A stretch of 64,000 nucleotides of DNA from Caldisphaera lagunensis DSM 15908. Lineage in GTDB: Archaea > Thermoproteota > Thermoprotei_A > Sulfolobales > Acidilobaceae. How positions within the stretch are numbered: the first letter of the stretch is position 1; each line of letters opens with the position of its first letter. The position numbers and the translations under genes were made by a program. The stretch lies in contig NC_019791.1 of NCBI RefSeq assembly GCF_000317795.1, positions 1,178,001 to 1,242,000 on the forward strand, in the 5' to 3' direction. Of the stretch, positions 5,678 to 60,900 are shown one piece after another. A model generated the notes under the pieces. It was given only the letters and a program-made list of their open reading frames with translations, was not told the DNA's origin and did no database searches.

Positions 5678-6598
5678 TTGGTGGATTCAGGTCAAGTTCA
5701 ACAGAATTCCCAGCAACAAAGCAATTCAGAATCTAATGAACAAAATCTTTTAAAACATATTGATGAATTGAGGGACAAAATTTTAGAGGTAAAAAATCAG
5801 AGAAGACAGTTAATTGAAGAAATAAAATCTCTTAGAGATAAGAGAAGACAGTTAATTGAAGACAAAAAACAACTTATTGAAAGATTTAAAGTGCTAAGAG
5901 ATCAAAGAAAGAAGATTTTAGATGAACTTGCAAAATTGAAACAAGAAAGGGAAACATTAAGTAAGGAATTTAAGAGCAAATTAGATCAGCTAAAAGAAGC
6001 TCATAATATAACTCAAAAAGAAGGTGATGTTGCTAAATTAAGCTTAAGAAAAATACAAAAGAGAATGGAAGAACTAGAGTGGAGACAACAAACTAGCGTA
6101 TTAACACCAGAAGAAGAAAAAAGACTAGTTGAAGAAATAGATAAATTAGAAGAATTGGCTGAAAGAGTCAGAAGAGCAAGAGAAGAAGAAGTTTCAATAT
6201 TAGAACTTGAGGCTGATGTAAAAGGTCTAAAGCTTAAACTATCAGAAGCTATAAATAAAATAAAAGAATTAAGAGAAAATGCGGGGAGATTAAAAGCAGA
6301 AATTTCTTCGATTAATCCTAAAATAGATGAATATAATAAAAATATAGATTCTTTGGGTGCAGAAATACAGCAAAAGAGTCAAGAAATCGAAAACCTAACA
6401 AAGCAACTAGATGCATTATATCAAGATTATAGAAATACGATGGTAAAATTAAAAGAAATGAAGCTTGCAAAACAACGTGGTATAGAGGTTAACCTATTAG
6501 AACAAAAGAGAAAAGAGATAGAAGAAAAACAAAAGAAAGGGGAAGCATTAACACTAGATGAGCTAAGAATACTATACGGAGACTTGGATAGCATATAA
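5678..6598 (+). CDS. Archaeal long coiled-coil protein
   Basis: A roughly 306-residue, highly charged protein, almost entirely coiled coil (Lys/Glu/Arg/Gln heptads from about residue 20 to 290) with no catalytic motif. It resembles the uncharacterised archaeal coiled-coil family (COG1340-like), whose role is unknown. The start is set at TTG 5678 because GAGGTG (5666-5671) sits six bases upstream. A GTG at 5669, overlapping the acd stop, is the longer alternative. A 22-base exact repeat (5799-5820 and 5841-5862, 14 codons apart) encodes two RRQLIE units, one turn of the heptad pattern duplicated. It is followed after two bases by a DUF447-like gene. Confidence 0.75.
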   Translation: MVDSGQVQQNSQQQSNSESNEQNLLKHIDELRDKILEVKNQRRQLIEEIKSLRDKRRQLIEDKKQLIERFKVLRDQRKKILDELAKLKQERETLSKEFKSKLDQLKEAHNITQKEGDVAKLSLRKIQKRMEELEWRQQTSVLTPEEEKRLVEEIDKLEELAERVRRAREEEVSILELEADVKGLKLKLSEAINKIKELRENAGRLKAEISSINPKIDEYNKNIDSLGAEIQQKSQEIENLTKQLDALYQDYRNTMVKLKEMKLAKQRGIEVNLLEQKRKEIEEKQKKGEALTLDELRILYGDLDSI

Positions 6599-29763: not shown

Positions 29764-30600
29764 TTGCCTTTATACCTTATAGGTTTAAATCATGAATATA
29801 TTACAAAAAAAGCATTAGAATATATAAAATCTTCTGATTTAATTATCATAGATTCTTATACAATGCCAAATTCTGATAAAATAGTTTCTGATGTTTTAAA
29901 TATTGCAAAGGAAAAGAAGGTAATTATTGCAAATAGAAGAATGCTTGAAGATGAGTCTTCTGATGTTTTAAATATTGCAAAGGAAAAGAAGGTAGGTATA
30001 ATAATTCCAGGTGATCCTTTAATAGCGACAACCCATGCCTCTATAGTTATAGATGCAAAAATCAAAAACATTGATGTAGAAATAATAAATGGAATATCAG
30101 GAATTTGTATGACAAAGTCCTTGTCAGGACTACAATATTATAAATATGGTAAAACACTAACGATACCAGGCCCTTGGAGGAATGTAAAAGCATATAGCCT
30201 ATTATTTAACTTATATGCAAATCTATGCATTAAAGCTCACACTCTTTTACTATTTGATATTGATGATAACAAAAAAACGTTAGATGCATCTATAGGAATA
30301 AAAACAATTCTTGAGTTGAATAATGAATTAAAATTGTATAGCTATTTAGAAAAATTATTAGGAATTCTTATACATGCCGGGGATAAAAATATGTTTATAG
30401 GAAATTCCTTAAGAAATTTATTAGATGATGCTAATATAGAAGAACCTTATAGCTTAGTGATCCCTTCAAATTTGCATTCTGAAGAAGAAAAATATCTTAA
30501 ATATGTTTTAGGAATTAAAAGCGAGGCTTTAGAAAATCATAAAAAATATATCAAAGAAGATTTTTGTAAATATATGCAATATTTAAGTAATTATATTTGA
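29764..30600 (+). CDS. dphB: Diphthine synthase with an internal exact duplication
   Basis: SAM-dependent methylase that builds diphthine on elongation factor 2. The tetrapyrrole-methylase fold is clear from MPLYLIGLNHEYITKKALEYI, IIIPGDPLIATTHASIVIDA, and GISGICMTKSLSGLQYYKYG with TIPGPW. At 278 residues it is longer than the usual 255-265. The excess maps to an exact 37-base direct repeat (29886-29922 and 29958-29994, 72 bases apart, in frame), which gives SDVLNIAKEKKV twice before the SAM loop. The start is TTG at 29764. The enzyme is probably active since the catalytic motifs are intact, but the first helix region is altered. Confidence 0.88.
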   Translation: MPLYLIGLNHEYITKKALEYIKSSDLIIIDSYTMPNSDKIVSDVLNIAKEKKVIIANRRMLEDESSDVLNIAKEKKVGIIIPGDPLIATTHASIVIDAKIKNIDVEIINGISGICMTKSLSGLQYYKYGKTLTIPGPWRNVKAYSLLFNLYANLCIKAHTLLLFDIDDNKKTLDASIGIKTILELNNELKLYSYLEKLLGILIHAGDKNMFIGNSLRNLLDDANIEEPYSLVIPSNLHSEEEKYLKYVLGIKSEALENHKKYIKEDFCKYMQYLSNYI

Positions 30601-40276: not shown

Positions 40277-41125
40277 ATGGATAAAATATGCTCAATATGC
40301 AAAAAAAGACAAGCTATTTATTATAGAGCTTATAGTGGTGAATATATTTGCGCTAAATGTCTAAATAATGTTATGGAAAAAAATGTAAAGAAAGAAATTA
40401 ATAAGACTAAATCTCTAAGCATTGATAGCAAAATTGTTATACCTATAACGTACTTTTCCCCAAGCTCATCTATTGCATTATCAAATCTAATTTATAGAAT
40501 TGAAAAACGGTATAAGTCTAGAATTGCTATAGTAATTCCCAAAGATTATAATATTGAAGAAATCAAAAATTTTTTAGAAAACAAATCTGACTTATTTATT
40601 GCAGAAATTAACATTAAACCTCCAGAAAGGCTATCTTTACAAGAATGTATTAGATTTGAAAGAGTATGGTCAATGAGGGCTGCAAAGATTTTAGGATATG
40701 AATTTGTATTTTTACCGGTAAGCAGAACTGATATATCCCTAATTGTCATTGATTCTTTAATAAATGGAAAAGCAAATCTACTTTCAGAATCCCTTGAATT
40801 TATTGAATATAATGGAATAAAGTTCCTCTATCCGTTTTCTGGAATAGAAGGAGAAACACTTGTTTCATATGAATTTTTATCAGGCATAAATGTTAAACCA
40901 TTATGTTTAACAAATATAAAATCAAAAAATGTATTTTATTCAATAGCTGGTAATAGACCAGAACTGGATTTTGGTAGCGAAAGACTTTTGGATAAATTAG
41001 GTAATTTTTTAGATAAACTAGGAAAATGTAAAATCTGCGCTGGATTTTCAGATAAAGAAATATGCGATACATGCAATAAGCTAAATCTAAAGGAATTAGA
41101 TGTTAAGTTAAGCTTTGCTCAATAA
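40277..41125 (+). CDS. TtuA/Ncs6-like protein with a degenerate PP-loop
   Basis: A 282-residue protein built like the archaeal tRNA thiolation enzyme TtuA, with an N-terminal zinc finger (CSICKKRQAIYYRAYSGEYI, ending CAKC) and a C-terminal one (CKICAGFSDKEICDTC). The ATP-binding PP-loop that should read SGGxDS is FSPSSSIAL. The second catalytic cysteine and the GH..DD segment are replaced (QECIRFERVWSMRAA, then FLPVSRTDIS). It is therefore unlikely to thiolate tRNA itself and may be a non-catalytic paralogue or partner. The ATG at 40277 is about 25 bases past TATA-like CTTATATAG, so the mRNA is probably leaderless. It converges on the next gene with an 18-base overlap. Confidence 0.68.
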   Translation: MDKICSICKKRQAIYYRAYSGEYICAKCLNNVMEKNVKKEINKTKSLSIDSKIVIPITYFSPSSSIALSNLIYRIEKRYKSRIAIVIPKDYNIEEIKNFLENKSDLFIAEINIKPPERLSLQECIRFERVWSMRAAKILGYEFVFLPVSRTDISLIVIDSLINGKANLLSESLEFIEYNGIKFLYPFSGIEGETLVSYEFLSGINVKPLCLTNIKSKNVFYSIAGNRPELDFGSERLLDKLGNFLDKLGKCKICAGFSDKEICDTCNKLNLKELDVKLSFAQ

Positions 41126-41905
41126 CTTTAATAAAATATCTTTTTCATCCTTATTTAAATGTAAAGATATGCTTATCTTATCTTTTTCCTTTAAGCTTGG
41201 GGGTTTTATTTCTCCATCAAAAACTACATAGCCAGAATCTATAATTTCTCTTATTAATTTATCATTATAAACATTTTTTAGTTTTGATAGCTGTTCCCTT
41301 AAATTTATCTCCTTTTTTATATCTTTTTCATCAAGTAAGGATCCACAAACAATGCAAGACATGTCTGGCATAACAGAATTAAATCCACAAACTGGACATC
41401 TAATAGGTGTTGATAAACCATATCGATTCCAAAGCTGTCTTAAGTTATCAATTAAATCTATAGCGTTTAATTGCTTAGCAATTTTATAAAGCCTTGGTGA
41501 AGCTCTACCAGCAATTTCTGGAGCATATGCAATTATAAGTTCTAATCTTTCTCTAGAATTTACTTCATCTCTTTCTATTAATCTCCCTGCAATTCCCTTC
41601 ATAAACTGATCCTTCGAATTTATGAATTTTTTTAATAATGATTCTTCAGACGGTTTTGTCACTCTAGATTCAACTATGGAATTTATTATTTCTTCTACTA
41701 AATCCTTTATATCATCTGGCTTTAAATTAATCAAATCTAAACCAAACTTGTCTATAATTTCTCTTGATATATCATTAACAAAGGAATTAAACTCATCATT
41801 GCTAAGCTTAGCTTGTTTTTGAGATTTCTTCTTTGTTTTTGAGATTTCGTTGTTTGGATCTTTAATTTTATTTTCATCTTTTTTATTACTCTTCTTTCTT
41901 GGCAT
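41108..41905 (-). CDS. Unknown zinc-ribbon protein with basic N-terminus
   Basis: A 265-residue protein: a lysine-rich N-terminal tail (about 1-33), a helical middle (about 40-160), one zinc ribbon (CPVCGFNSVMPDMSCIVCG, near residue 168-186) and a helical end. There is no family I can name. The basic tail plus zinc ribbon would suit nucleic-acid or ribosome binding. The 3' end overlaps the convergent TtuA-like gene. Upstream, between it and the MFS gene, lies the 28-bp palindrome described separately. Confidence 0.6.
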   Translation of the reverse strand: MPRKKSNKKDENKIKDPNNEISKTKKKSQKQAKLSNDEFNSFVNDISREIIDKFGLDLINLKPDDIKDLVEEIINSIVESRVTKPSEESLLKKFINSKDQFMKGIAGRLIERDEVNSRERLELIIAYAPEIAGRASPRLYKIAKQLNAIDLIDNLRQLWNRYGLSTPIRCPVCGFNSVMPDMSCIVCGSLLDEKDIKKEINLREQLSKLKNVYNDKLIREIIDSGYVVFDGEIKPPSLKEKDKISISLHLNKDEKDILLKLLSKA

Positions 41906-41958: not shown

Positions 41959-41986
41959 ACATTGTTAACTCCCCGGTTAACAATGT
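41959..41986. repeat. 28-bp palindrome, copy 1 (intergenic)
   Basis: Perfect inverted repeat: left arm ACATTGTTAAC (41959-41969), centre TCCCCG, right arm GTTAACAATGT (41976-41986). Its 26-bp core (41960-41985) differs at one central base from the reverse complement of 57254-57279. Here it lies five bases after the stop of the MFS gene (transcribed leftward) and upstream of the zinc-ribbon gene. A terminator, a protein-binding site or a tiny mobile repeat are all possible. Confidence 0.75.
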
Positions 41987-41990
41987 CGTA

Positions 41991-43181
41991 TTATGCTAAG
42001 ACAACCATTATTAGAGATAATATGGTGGATATTATTGGTATTGTTATAAATATTTCCTTACCAAGGCTAAAAGCTATACCAACCAATAATGAACCTGTTA
42101 ACGTACCTAATTCTCTTGAATTATAATAAATGTGTGAGCTATAACCGCTTGAACCTTCTGAGAACAAATTGTATAGGATTATATCAATTATGCTAAACAA
42201 GATGGACGATATTGTTATATATGCTATCAAATCTAACAAATTGTTAATAAATGATATAGCTGTAACTAGCCAAATACCTCTAAGCAATATTGATAGAAAA
42301 GCTATCCTTTTATTGCTAGTTGTCCCAAATAGGGAAAGCAAGATCAAAGAAATTCCTATTAAAAGGCCAGTTATCCCATATGACAGCCATAATAAATTCA
42401 AACTCAAATCAGATTTAACTAATAATGGAAGTATAGCAAAAATGTAGTCTCCTGTTAAGGTTGCAAAAAATAAAGACATTGATATTCTTTTTATTGATAT
42501 TCTTCTATGCGATACATACCCATTTTTTATTGCATTAGGAAATGAACCTACATTATCGTATGCTAAATATGAAAATATTTTTATATGGCTACTTATTGAA
42601 TCTAAGTTCTTTGTAAATGAATGAAGAGATCTCTCAATGCTTAGATTTATCCTAGGTAATGATAAAAATGTAATAAACCCAATCATTATTGTAAAGTAAA
42701 TGAAATAGTCAAATGGAACTCCTTGTATAAAATAGAAAGAAAGAAGCCCTAAACCTCTTATAAAATAGAAAGAAAATTTTTGTAATTCTATATAATAATT
42801 CCATTTATCGCTGCTCTTTAGTTCAAATATTGTTATGGAAATTGCCAAGTTAGAGGATGCCACTCCTAAGGCATGAAACATATAAGCTAATGCCAATGAA
42901 ACCAAAGTATGAAACTCAAATAGTACTCCAGTTGCTAAAATTGATATAAATGATACAGCAATTAGCAATTTATTGTTTCCATTATTAGATATCTTACCTA
43001 AGGCAAAATTAGAAACAATAAAAACCAAGCTCCATAAAGCACTTATTAATCCATATTGAAAAGGGGTAACATTAGTTCTATAACCAATATAAGAATAAAT
43101 TCCTATATCTAGAGACGATAATAGAGCGATGAATACCATAGATATGGCAAACCATGTTTCTTTACTCATTCTTTTTCCCAT
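41991..43181 (-). CDS. MFS-type transporter
   Basis: A 396-residue integral membrane protein with about eleven or twelve hydrophobic segments spread evenly, a short central loop (SSHIKIFSYLAYDN) between the two halves, and MFS-like loops (ALGKISNNGNNKLLIA between helices 2 and 3). The substrate cannot be predicted. The start is ATG 43181 or ATG 43169. It is a single gene beside the degraded nuclease-like pseudogene upstream and the palindrome just after its stop. Confidence 0.78.
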   Translation of the reverse strand: MGKRMSKETWFAISMVFIALLSSLDIGIYSYIGYRTNVTPFQYGLISALWSLVFIVSNFALGKISNNGNNKLLIAVSFISILATGVLFEFHTLVSLALAYMFHALGVASSNLAISITIFELKSSDKWNYYIELQKFSFYFIRGLGLLSFYFIQGVPFDYFIYFTIMIGFITFLSLPRINLSIERSLHSFTKNLDSISSHIKIFSYLAYDNVGSFPNAIKNGYVSHRRISIKRISMSLFFATLTGDYIFAILPLLVKSDLSLNLLWLSYGITGLLIGISLILLSLFGTTSNKRIAFLSILLRGIWLVTAISFINNLLDLIAYITISSILFSIIDIILYNLFSEGSSGYSSHIYYNSRELGTLTGSLLVGIAFSLGKEIFITIPIISTILSLIMVVLA

Positions 43182-56670: not shown

Positions 56671-57114
56671 TTGAGCAAAAAGAGATCAGTATCTGAAATT
56701 GTTGCTGTTGTTATGTTAATTATTGTAGCAATTTCTGCCTCTACTTTGCTTTATATTTGGCTAAATAGTGTTATAGGAACAATGCATTATAATAATCCAG
56801 CTTTATATGAAAAGATAAGTATAAGTGCTGGAAATATTACGAAGACAAGTAATGGTAATTATACTGCATATGCATATGTTCAAAATTCTGGCTCACCAGT
56901 AACGATAAGTAGTGTTGTAGTTTTATATTATAACAACTCCTTAATATACTTCAACAATACACCATCCGGAGATCTAAATATAAAACCAAATAGTGTAGGT
57001 CTTGTTTATGCATCTAATAATACAAAAGTAAAAGTTCCATCAGGATCTCCTGTTATAATTGAGGTTATAACAGCAAATGGAGTTAAGGCAACTTATCAAA
57101 CAACATGGCCTTGA
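56671..57114 (+). CDS. Type IV pilin-like protein
   Basis: A 147-residue archaeal pilin. The N-terminus KKRSVSEIVAVVMLIIVAIS is a class III signal sequence: a basic tip, a probable prepilin-peptidase site before VSEIV, then a hydrophobic assembly helix, as in the archaeal pilin N-terminal domain. The rest is a beta-rich, Asn/Ser-rich globular head with several N-x-S/T sites, ending ATYQTTWP. The start is TTG 56671, nine bases after GGTG. A paralogue interrupted by a stop lies at 60412-60900 and shares NPALYEKISI and the C-terminus. No assembly ATPase is in the window. The 3' end overlaps the convergent next gene by 19 bases. Confidence 0.82.
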   Translation: MSKKRSVSEIVAVVMLIIVAISASTLLYIWLNSVIGTMHYNNPALYEKISISAGNITKTSNGNYTAYAYVQNSGSPVTISSVVVLYYNNSLIYFNNTPSGDLNIKPNSVGLVYASNNTKVKVPSGSPVIIEVITANGVKATYQTTWP

Positions 57115-57554
57115 GAAAACGAATATAAAATTAAGGCTGCCTCTGCAACACTACCAATCCTTGATTTAATACCTTTTATATAATATGGTTCCCCTAAAGT
57201 TAATTCATTTGGAGAAAATGAAGAATCTGAGCCATTAAATACTATAAGAGTCTCATTGTTAACCGGGGGGTTAACAATGTCTATTTCTTCTTTAGCATTA
57301 TCTTTATCTATTAAAATTACTTTTTTTGGATTATAAAGCTCTAAAGCATCTTTTAGATCAGGCAAAACTACTACTCCCTTTCCTTCCTTTAATGCAATCT
57401 TAAAAACTTCAGCAATACCATTTTGCGCAGCGCTTCCATAAGCTTTACTTATAATTATCATCTTATATCCAAAACCAAAGCTAAGTTTTGCCATATCTAT
57501 TAATTTTTGCACACTGCTTACATTATGGATAACCGGAATTATCTTTGCATCCAT
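57096..57554 (-). CDS. DUF2122-like protein
   Basis: A 152-residue archaeal protein matching, from memory, the DUF2122 family once labelled RecB-family nuclease: VIHNVSSVQKLIDMAKLSFG, then KAYGSAAQNGIAEVFKIALK, VVVLPDLKDALELYNP, and a late GSDSSFSPNELTLGEPYYI. The nuclease label is doubtful because no clear ExK core is visible. The start is ATG 57554 since GGGAGATAAA lies just upstream. Notably, residues about 92-100 (IVNPPVNNE) are encoded by the second copy of the 26-bp palindrome. Confidence 0.62.
   Translation of the reverse strand: MDAKIIPVIHNVSSVQKLIDMAKLSFGFGYKMIIISKAYGSAAQNGIAEVFKIALKEGKGVVVLPDLKDALELYNPKKVILIDKDNAKEEIDIVNPPVNNETLIVFNGSDSSFSPNELTLGEPYYIKGIKSRIGSVAEAALILYSFSQGHVV
57254..57279. 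repeat. 26-bp palindrome, copy 2 (inside the DUF2122-like gene)
   Basis: Perfect inverted repeat CATTGTTAACC (57254-57264), GGGG, GGTTAACAATG (57269-57279). Its reverse complement is identical to 41960-41985 except for one central base. This copy lies wholly within a coding region and is read in frame, so if it was inserted it brought in extra bases that kept the frame open. Confidence 0.75.
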
Positions 57555-57667
57555 TTTATCTCCCATTTATTAACATTGAAAAGAATTAAAAAAGTTCTAA
57601 TGTTTTATTATCCATATTTAATATAAAAATTTAAATTTTGTTGCTATTAAAAAATCTGGGATTAAAA

Positions 57668-60411: not shown

Positions 60412-60900
60412 TTAGGGCCATGTTGTTTGATAAGTTGCCTGAACTCCATTTGTTGTTACTACTTCAACAGTAATTGGTGTACCAGGAGTGATAGGGATCT
60501 TACTAGTATTAGTATATGAAACAGCTCCAATGCTATTAGGTCCTATTGTAACAGGACCCGGGGCCGGAGTGTTCGGAGTTCCACCAAATAATGTCACTCC
60601 ACTAGCATTAATTACATATATAGCATCTATTGTAACAGGACTACTACCAGAGTTTAACACATAAGCTGTAACATTATAACTACTACCTGTTTTAATTTGA
60701 ACAGCATTTATACTAATTTTTTCATATAAAGCAGGATTTGATGAATGTACTGATCCAACTAAACCTGAGAGTCATAGATAAATTAAAACAGCAGCAGCTA
60801 TTGCTATTAATATAAGCATTACAACTGCAACTATATCTGATATTGTTTTGCTATTCTTTTTTCCTTTACCATTACCAACTCCCTTAATTGTATAATGCAT
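60412..60900 (-). pseudogene. Type IV pilin gene interrupted by a single TGA
   Basis: Frame from ATG 60900 (with GGTGTGAATA upstream) to TAA 60412, 162 residues if the one internal stop is read through. The class III signal (KKNSKTISDIVAVVMLILIA) is intact. Codon 43 (60772-60774) is TGA exactly where the paralogue at 56671 has the Trp of YIWLNS. The remainder matches it (SNPALYEKISIN, and TTNGVQATYQTTWP at the end). No other stop or frameshift is present, so this is either a fresh nonsense mutation, a sequencing error, or read-through. The AT-rich upstream region is preserved. Confidence 0.8.

Follow-up and report, generated by a model that had tools for sequence, protein, structure and literature searches.

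A conserved palindromic box of Caldisphaera lagunensis and other Acidilobaceae, a probable dispersed binding site for a dimeric protein

Among the closest described systems are the DnaA boxes with datA and the bacterial parS sites, which number a few tens and hardly vary in sequence, some of them lying near an origin and near the initiator gene. The dif/XerA sites have palindromic arms around a 6-bp centre (11-6-11) and occur in one copy per chromosome, and REP/BIME elements are repetitive extragenic palindromes. Sequence-specific marks for the nucleoid or for segregation are known in few archaea. The SegB sites of Sulfolobales are 13-bp sequences of the form TCTAGA-S-TCTAGA, with about 32-46 per chromosome and 83% of them intragenic (PMC12284271). 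The ucm sites of Sulfolobus are an 11-bp motif with hundreds of ChIP sites, bound by the protein UBP and also found at origins (PMC12141716). The palindrome considered here had no described counterpart of the same sequence in the literature searched, which took in few subscription journals.

The window is a stretch of 64,000 nucleotides (bases 1178001-1242000) of the single 1,546,846-bp contig of Caldisphaera lagunensis DSM 15908. A preliminary description had reported two near-identical palindromes in it, and both are indeed there (Table 1), with copy 1 and the reverse complement of 57254-57279 identical at 25/26 positions and the sole mismatch, T in copy 1 vs C in copy 2, falling in the centre. 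The arms had been called perfect over 10-11 bp, which holds for copy 2 (11 bp), whereas copy 1 is perfect over 10 bp only and its next pair is T/G. Chance recurrence had been judged negligible, and with up to three mismatches allowed the window yielded just these two copies, against zero in 100 dinucleotide shuffles.

Table 1. The two palindromes and the genes at which they lie, in window coordinates
Feature	Position	Strand	Remarks
Palindrome, copy 1	41960..41985	+	CATTGTTAACTCCCCGGTTAACAATG; invariant core 41963-41982
Palindrome, copy 2	57254..57279	-	CATTGTTAACCCCCCGGTTAACAATG on the minus strand; invariant core 57257-57276
Gene of a DUF2122 (RecB-family nuclease) protein, 156 aa, host of copy 2	57096..57566	-	Pfam PF09895, 1.2e-38
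MFS-like transporter gene	41991..43181	-	ends 5 nt from copy 1; MFS_1, 6.8e-8, slightly below the curated cut-off
Gene of a conserved 265-aa protein	41108..41905	-	starts 54 nt beyond copy 1

Copy 1 is intergenic, just past the stop codon of the transporter gene, and an orthologous copy occupies the same place in the same orientation in Acidilobaceae archaeon UBA158. Copy 2 lies within the DUF2122 coding frame, where it is translated as IVNPPVN; it is found at the same place in Caldisphaera sp. KMA_Bin23. Orthologues of the DUF2122 protein were found in 37/40 genomes searched. A Pfam search with the 265-aa protein gave no match, and its likely homologue in a putative S. acidocaldarius genome, judged by eye from sequence likeness and from gene order, its 282-aa neighbour included, is two genes away from the WhiP-like, two-winged-helix gene discussed below. 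The window also holds other repeats. Two pilin-like genes in opposite orientation have a common 52-nt 3' end that is 90% identical (57059-57110 and 60416-60467). In-gene direct repeats at 29886-29999 (42 nt, 95%) and 5796-5876 (39 nt, 85%) are perhaps recent internal duplications, and the 300-nt stretches 41-340 and 869-1168, which are 73% alike, are probably duplicated gene segments.

The search for arm, spacer and arm that the preliminary description had suggested returned six exact copies of the long form in the genome and none with the reversed pattern. A shorter core, TGTTAACNCCCCNGTTAACA, occurs in 27 exact copies in the 1.55-Mb genome, with a further 2, 1 and 1 copies at one, two and three mismatches, respectively; reversed-pattern controls for this 20-mer gave 1-2 matches at three mismatches. 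So steep a drop from exact to mismatched copies is expected of a site under selection. The consensus is TGTTAAC-YCCCCR-GTTAACA, a palindrome of 20-22 bases whose core arms, GTTAAC, stand around a 6-bp centre, which among the 30 copies of this genome reads CCCCCG (13), TCCCCG (10), TCCCCA (4), CCCCCA (1) or a one-base variant of these (2). With some 30 copies that are kept in relatives, the box is more than a pair of unconserved sequences, and a recent local duplication does not account for the two in the window, whose flanks do not match. Elsewhere, two boxes near 81197 and 88875 of the chromosome apparently have a common right flank, both matching the same stretch of one other locus (L020), and there the box appears to have been carried by a local duplication.

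Most copies (24/30) are intergenic, compared with about 10% noncoding DNA in the window, the gene calls being longest open frames without curation. Of these 24, 14 lie between tandem genes, five between divergent and five between convergent ones; the other six copies are in coding DNA. About ten copies stand within 25 nt past a stop codon, those in tandem or divergent settings lie 50-400 bp upstream of a start, and both orientations of the box relative to genes are found. The copies stand alone at distances of kilobases to tens of kilobases, or form loose pairs, an arrangement that rules out a CRISPR repeat or a tandem array with spacers. Neighbouring genes are functionally mixed, including by Pfam aroA, tiaS, POR gamma, endonuclease dU and aldehyde dehydrogenase, and by eye hemB, PAN and prefoldin. 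Two neighbourhoods are common to at least four genera, namely that of tiaS and that of the two-winged-helix gene, the latter with a PH0730-like winged-helix neighbour. In this genome orc1-1 was matched at 109-1191, and one copy follows it at 1699, some 0.5 kb on. Clustering at oriC1 is not general, however, since an Acidilobus-like genome and genus g14 have no box within about 19 kb of it.

When GTTAAC or GTTTAC half sites were allowed, 38/98 relatives had matches, nearly all of them members of the same family, and controls had none. Bearers mostly have 3-29 boxes per genome and belong to genera g1, g4, g6, g9, g10, g12, g13, g14 and part of g5; in the same search no box was found in genera g3, g7, g8 and g11 of this family, and other families of the order had just 0-2 stray matches per genome. 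In a scan of 84,980 GTDB species, chance matches to the arms alone turned up in bacteria, but the C-rich Y-CYCC-R centre is present in 34/34 Acidilobaceae copies and absent from every chance match outside the family. Among 2.9 million viral contigs the long form was absent and an 18-mer had eight matches, which is roughly the estimated chance level, and a viral origin was dropped since there was no excess.

The copies occupy orthologous places in sister species whose DNA is about 80% identical. Across 17 orthologous pairs all 14 arm positions are identical and the two bases beyond the arms on each side are 94-100% identical, whereas the flanks are at 49-54%. The C-rich centre, by contrast, is inverted in 9/15 noncoding pairs (8/14 without one double-counted target) and in 0/5 coding pairs. 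A centre that is freely inverted means that the reader of the box is indifferent to its direction; in coding copies the direction is fixed, since the two orientations spell different codons. Template switching inside the palindrome would yield such inversions, and the box offers a clean natural case of a palindrome whose centre is repeatedly inverted while its arms are under strong selection.

The preliminary description had offered three readings of the element, a site bound by a nucleoid or regulatory protein, a very small mobile repeat and a processed RNA hairpin, and these comparisons bear on each of them. A mobile repeat of the REP or MITE kind would be dispersed, palindromic and mainly intergenic, as the box is, but the box sits at orthologous positions across species, the flanks of different copies are unrelated, target duplications are absent, and no clean 26-28-bp empty site was seen among the orthologues compared. 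Copies within the DUF2122, AroA and PH0730-like genes give gap-free alignments with orthologues in which the box is missing; the DUF2122 protein of UBA158, for instance, reads DIENPLIDKD where the box-bearing protein reads DIVNPPVNNE. In POR gamma the box uses residues present in the family anyway, and the boxes a few nt past the tiaS stop codon and inside POR gamma (G000:C1:548696-549379, L155 and L259) are kept between Caldisphaera and genus g10. The gap-free alignments indicate that boxes are gained and lost by substitution and not inserted, and we consider mobility the least probable of the explanations, to the point of setting it aside. An RNA hairpin acting as a terminator, a processing signal or a small RNA would agree with the perfect inverted repeat, the C-rich loop and the many copies directly behind stop codons. 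It is nevertheless very improbable, given that about half of the orthologous noncoding copies have the centre switched from C4 to G4 or back, so that no strand or loop is conserved, that copies lie in both orientations relative to genes and also inside them, and that the GTTTAC-type half sites of other genera break the pairing.

The first of the three readings is the one that the kept arms, drifting flanks, inverting centre and intergenic bias favour. We propose, with a probability of roughly 0.8, that in Acidilobaceae a sequence-specific DNA-binding protein docks on the box as a symmetric dimer, and that the box serves as a sparse architectural or nucleoid mark with local regulatory effect. 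Each half, TTGTTAAC, would be contacted by one subunit, and the YCCCCR centre would be needed but tolerated in either direction, at about 30 boxes chromosome-wide that lie mostly between genes and next to unrelated functions. The dyad, the invariant arms, the indifferent direction, the intergenic preference and the mixed neighbours fit such a protein and such a mark. An ordinary transcription factor with a regulon of about 20-30 genes would explain the intergenic bias, the positions upstream of starts and the two neighbourhoods conserved over genera; as an operator, however, the box would have to be reconciled with the copies between convergent genes, just behind stop codons and in coding DNA, and with the functional mixture of its neighbours. 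This spread argues for an architectural mark and not the operator of one metabolic regulon, and we regard an ordinary operator as possible but doubtful. The sites are so well defined that one oligonucleotide could fish out the reader. The box-bearing family also includes Aeropyrum, for which contact maps exist for comparison, and which is a Desulfurococcales model naturally without SMC proteins (PMC10769869). In the probable A. pernix genome (G016) there are boxes near 444.6, 445.2, 1260.2, 1261.2 and 1505.9 kb.

As to which protein reads the box, some boxes stand in loose, inverted pairs at 0.7-1.1 kb from each other, and these pointed to the gene of a 241-aa protein, which in the C. lagunensis contig is at 1275967-1276689. 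Sequence searches of Pfam, NCBIfam and the PDB gave no match for this protein above cut-offs, but its AlphaFold model consists of two winged-helix domains (pLDDT about 90 each) with a disordered linker between them, for which the best PDB folds are MarR-type and Sso10a. It was found in 59/98 genomes of the order. A box with at most two mismatches lies within 450 bp of the gene in about 21/30 genomes of the family, and on both sides of it in about 12, where chance would place one near it in an estimated 1% or so per genome; this association was noticed post hoc and not predicted. The box stands 21-172 bp upstream in many genomes and 134-232 bp downstream in many genera. Since boxes bracket the gene, its product or the PH0730-like neighbour is the leading candidate reader, by the argument from autoregulation.

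The two-winged-helix protein is probably WhiP, the initiator of oriC3, which we presume from synteny. The WhiP-like gene of the putative S. acidocaldarius genome lies between the ornithine carbamoyltransferase and thermosome genes; in S. islandicus whiP is SiL_1206 and cdc6-2 SiL_1228, while orc1-2 is SiRe_1231, ornithine carbamoyltransferase SiRe_1208 and thermosome SiRe_1214. This synteny indicates WhiP, although the identification stays at probable, because the tag arithmetic also fits the PH0730-like neighbour. A noncoding segment about 50-250 nt behind the gene (compared over loci L156-L205) is conserved in five families of the order and contains inverted CTACTAC/GTAGTAG repeats, GTATTATTG, and GTTTGTATAAT or TTATACAAAC. 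It looks like the core of a WhiP-linked origin. The conserved GTTTGTATAAT was tested as a ucm candidate and sought beside orc1-1, where it was not found.

If WhiP is the reader, it would bind boxes upstream and downstream of the gene that encodes it and some 25 more elsewhere, much as DnaA binds outside oriC, so as to link replication with expression or to be titrated. The boxes upstream and downstream of the gene in many genera, the agreement with the whiP synteny of S. islandicus and the origin-like segment directly behind the gene speak for this reading, to which we give tentative weight at most. A fuller analogy with DnaA, in which a fixed set of about 30 boxes, including those on both sides of the WhiP gene and its origin, marks architecture or couples replication with transcription, seems to us unlikely. 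The origin-like segment has its own repeats and the Acidilobaceae box lies just outside it. Genera g3 and g7 and families f3, f4, f7 and f11 have the two-winged-helix protein without the box, its recognition helices are well conserved in genera that have no box, and in the order's other families a search at the whiP-like gene did not turn up the same palindrome. A protein kept with conserved helices where the box is missing may not be its reader. The helices of the two candidate readers, compared between genera with and without boxes, gave no telling difference. In five genomes of genus g7 the word GGGGWCCCTC recurs about 140-380 times each (more than 200 times in G010), which is roughly tenfold or more the count of the reversed-pattern control, and several copies flank the whiP-like gene. 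It is not an obvious counterpart of the box, being a genome-wide word there.

Set beside the known systems, the box, read as the mark of a dimeric protein, has partial likenesses to several. It differs from REP/BIME in that its positions evolve by substitution and not by insertion, and in that no conserved head motif flanks it. Its arms and 6-bp centre recall dif/XerA, but about 30 copies (27 with the exact core) and a centre inverted between orthologues reject a dif site. In number and near-invariance it resembles the DnaA boxes with datA and parS, though it is not clearly clustered at an origin in its own genome and its reader is a candidate. The ucm sites are, like the box, dispersed and biased towards intergenic DNA, and UBP is a sequence-specific nucleoid protein (PMC12141716). 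The box is instead a palindrome, about 22 bp long and present some 30 times, and it lies outside the conserved origin-like segment; UBP, a 111-aa protein described with another motif (PMC12141716), is probably not its reader. Among the 60 neighbours listed, a minority of them searched against Pfam, inspection by eye turned up no ParA/SegA-like gene. SegB sites are likewise dispersed palindromes, each a pair of self-complementary hexamers, and one of them stands beside the gene of their reader (PMC12284271), as boxes stand beside the gene of the candidate reader. The core GTTAAC-YCCCCR-GTTAAC is not a motif of the TCTAGA-S-TCTAGA type, and a SegB site was excluded; the two differ in sequence, in spacing (6 bp vs 1 bp) and in placement, 80% of the boxes being intergenic and 83% of the SegB sites intragenic (PMC12284271). 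The box would add a further, independent set to the few such marks described in archaea.
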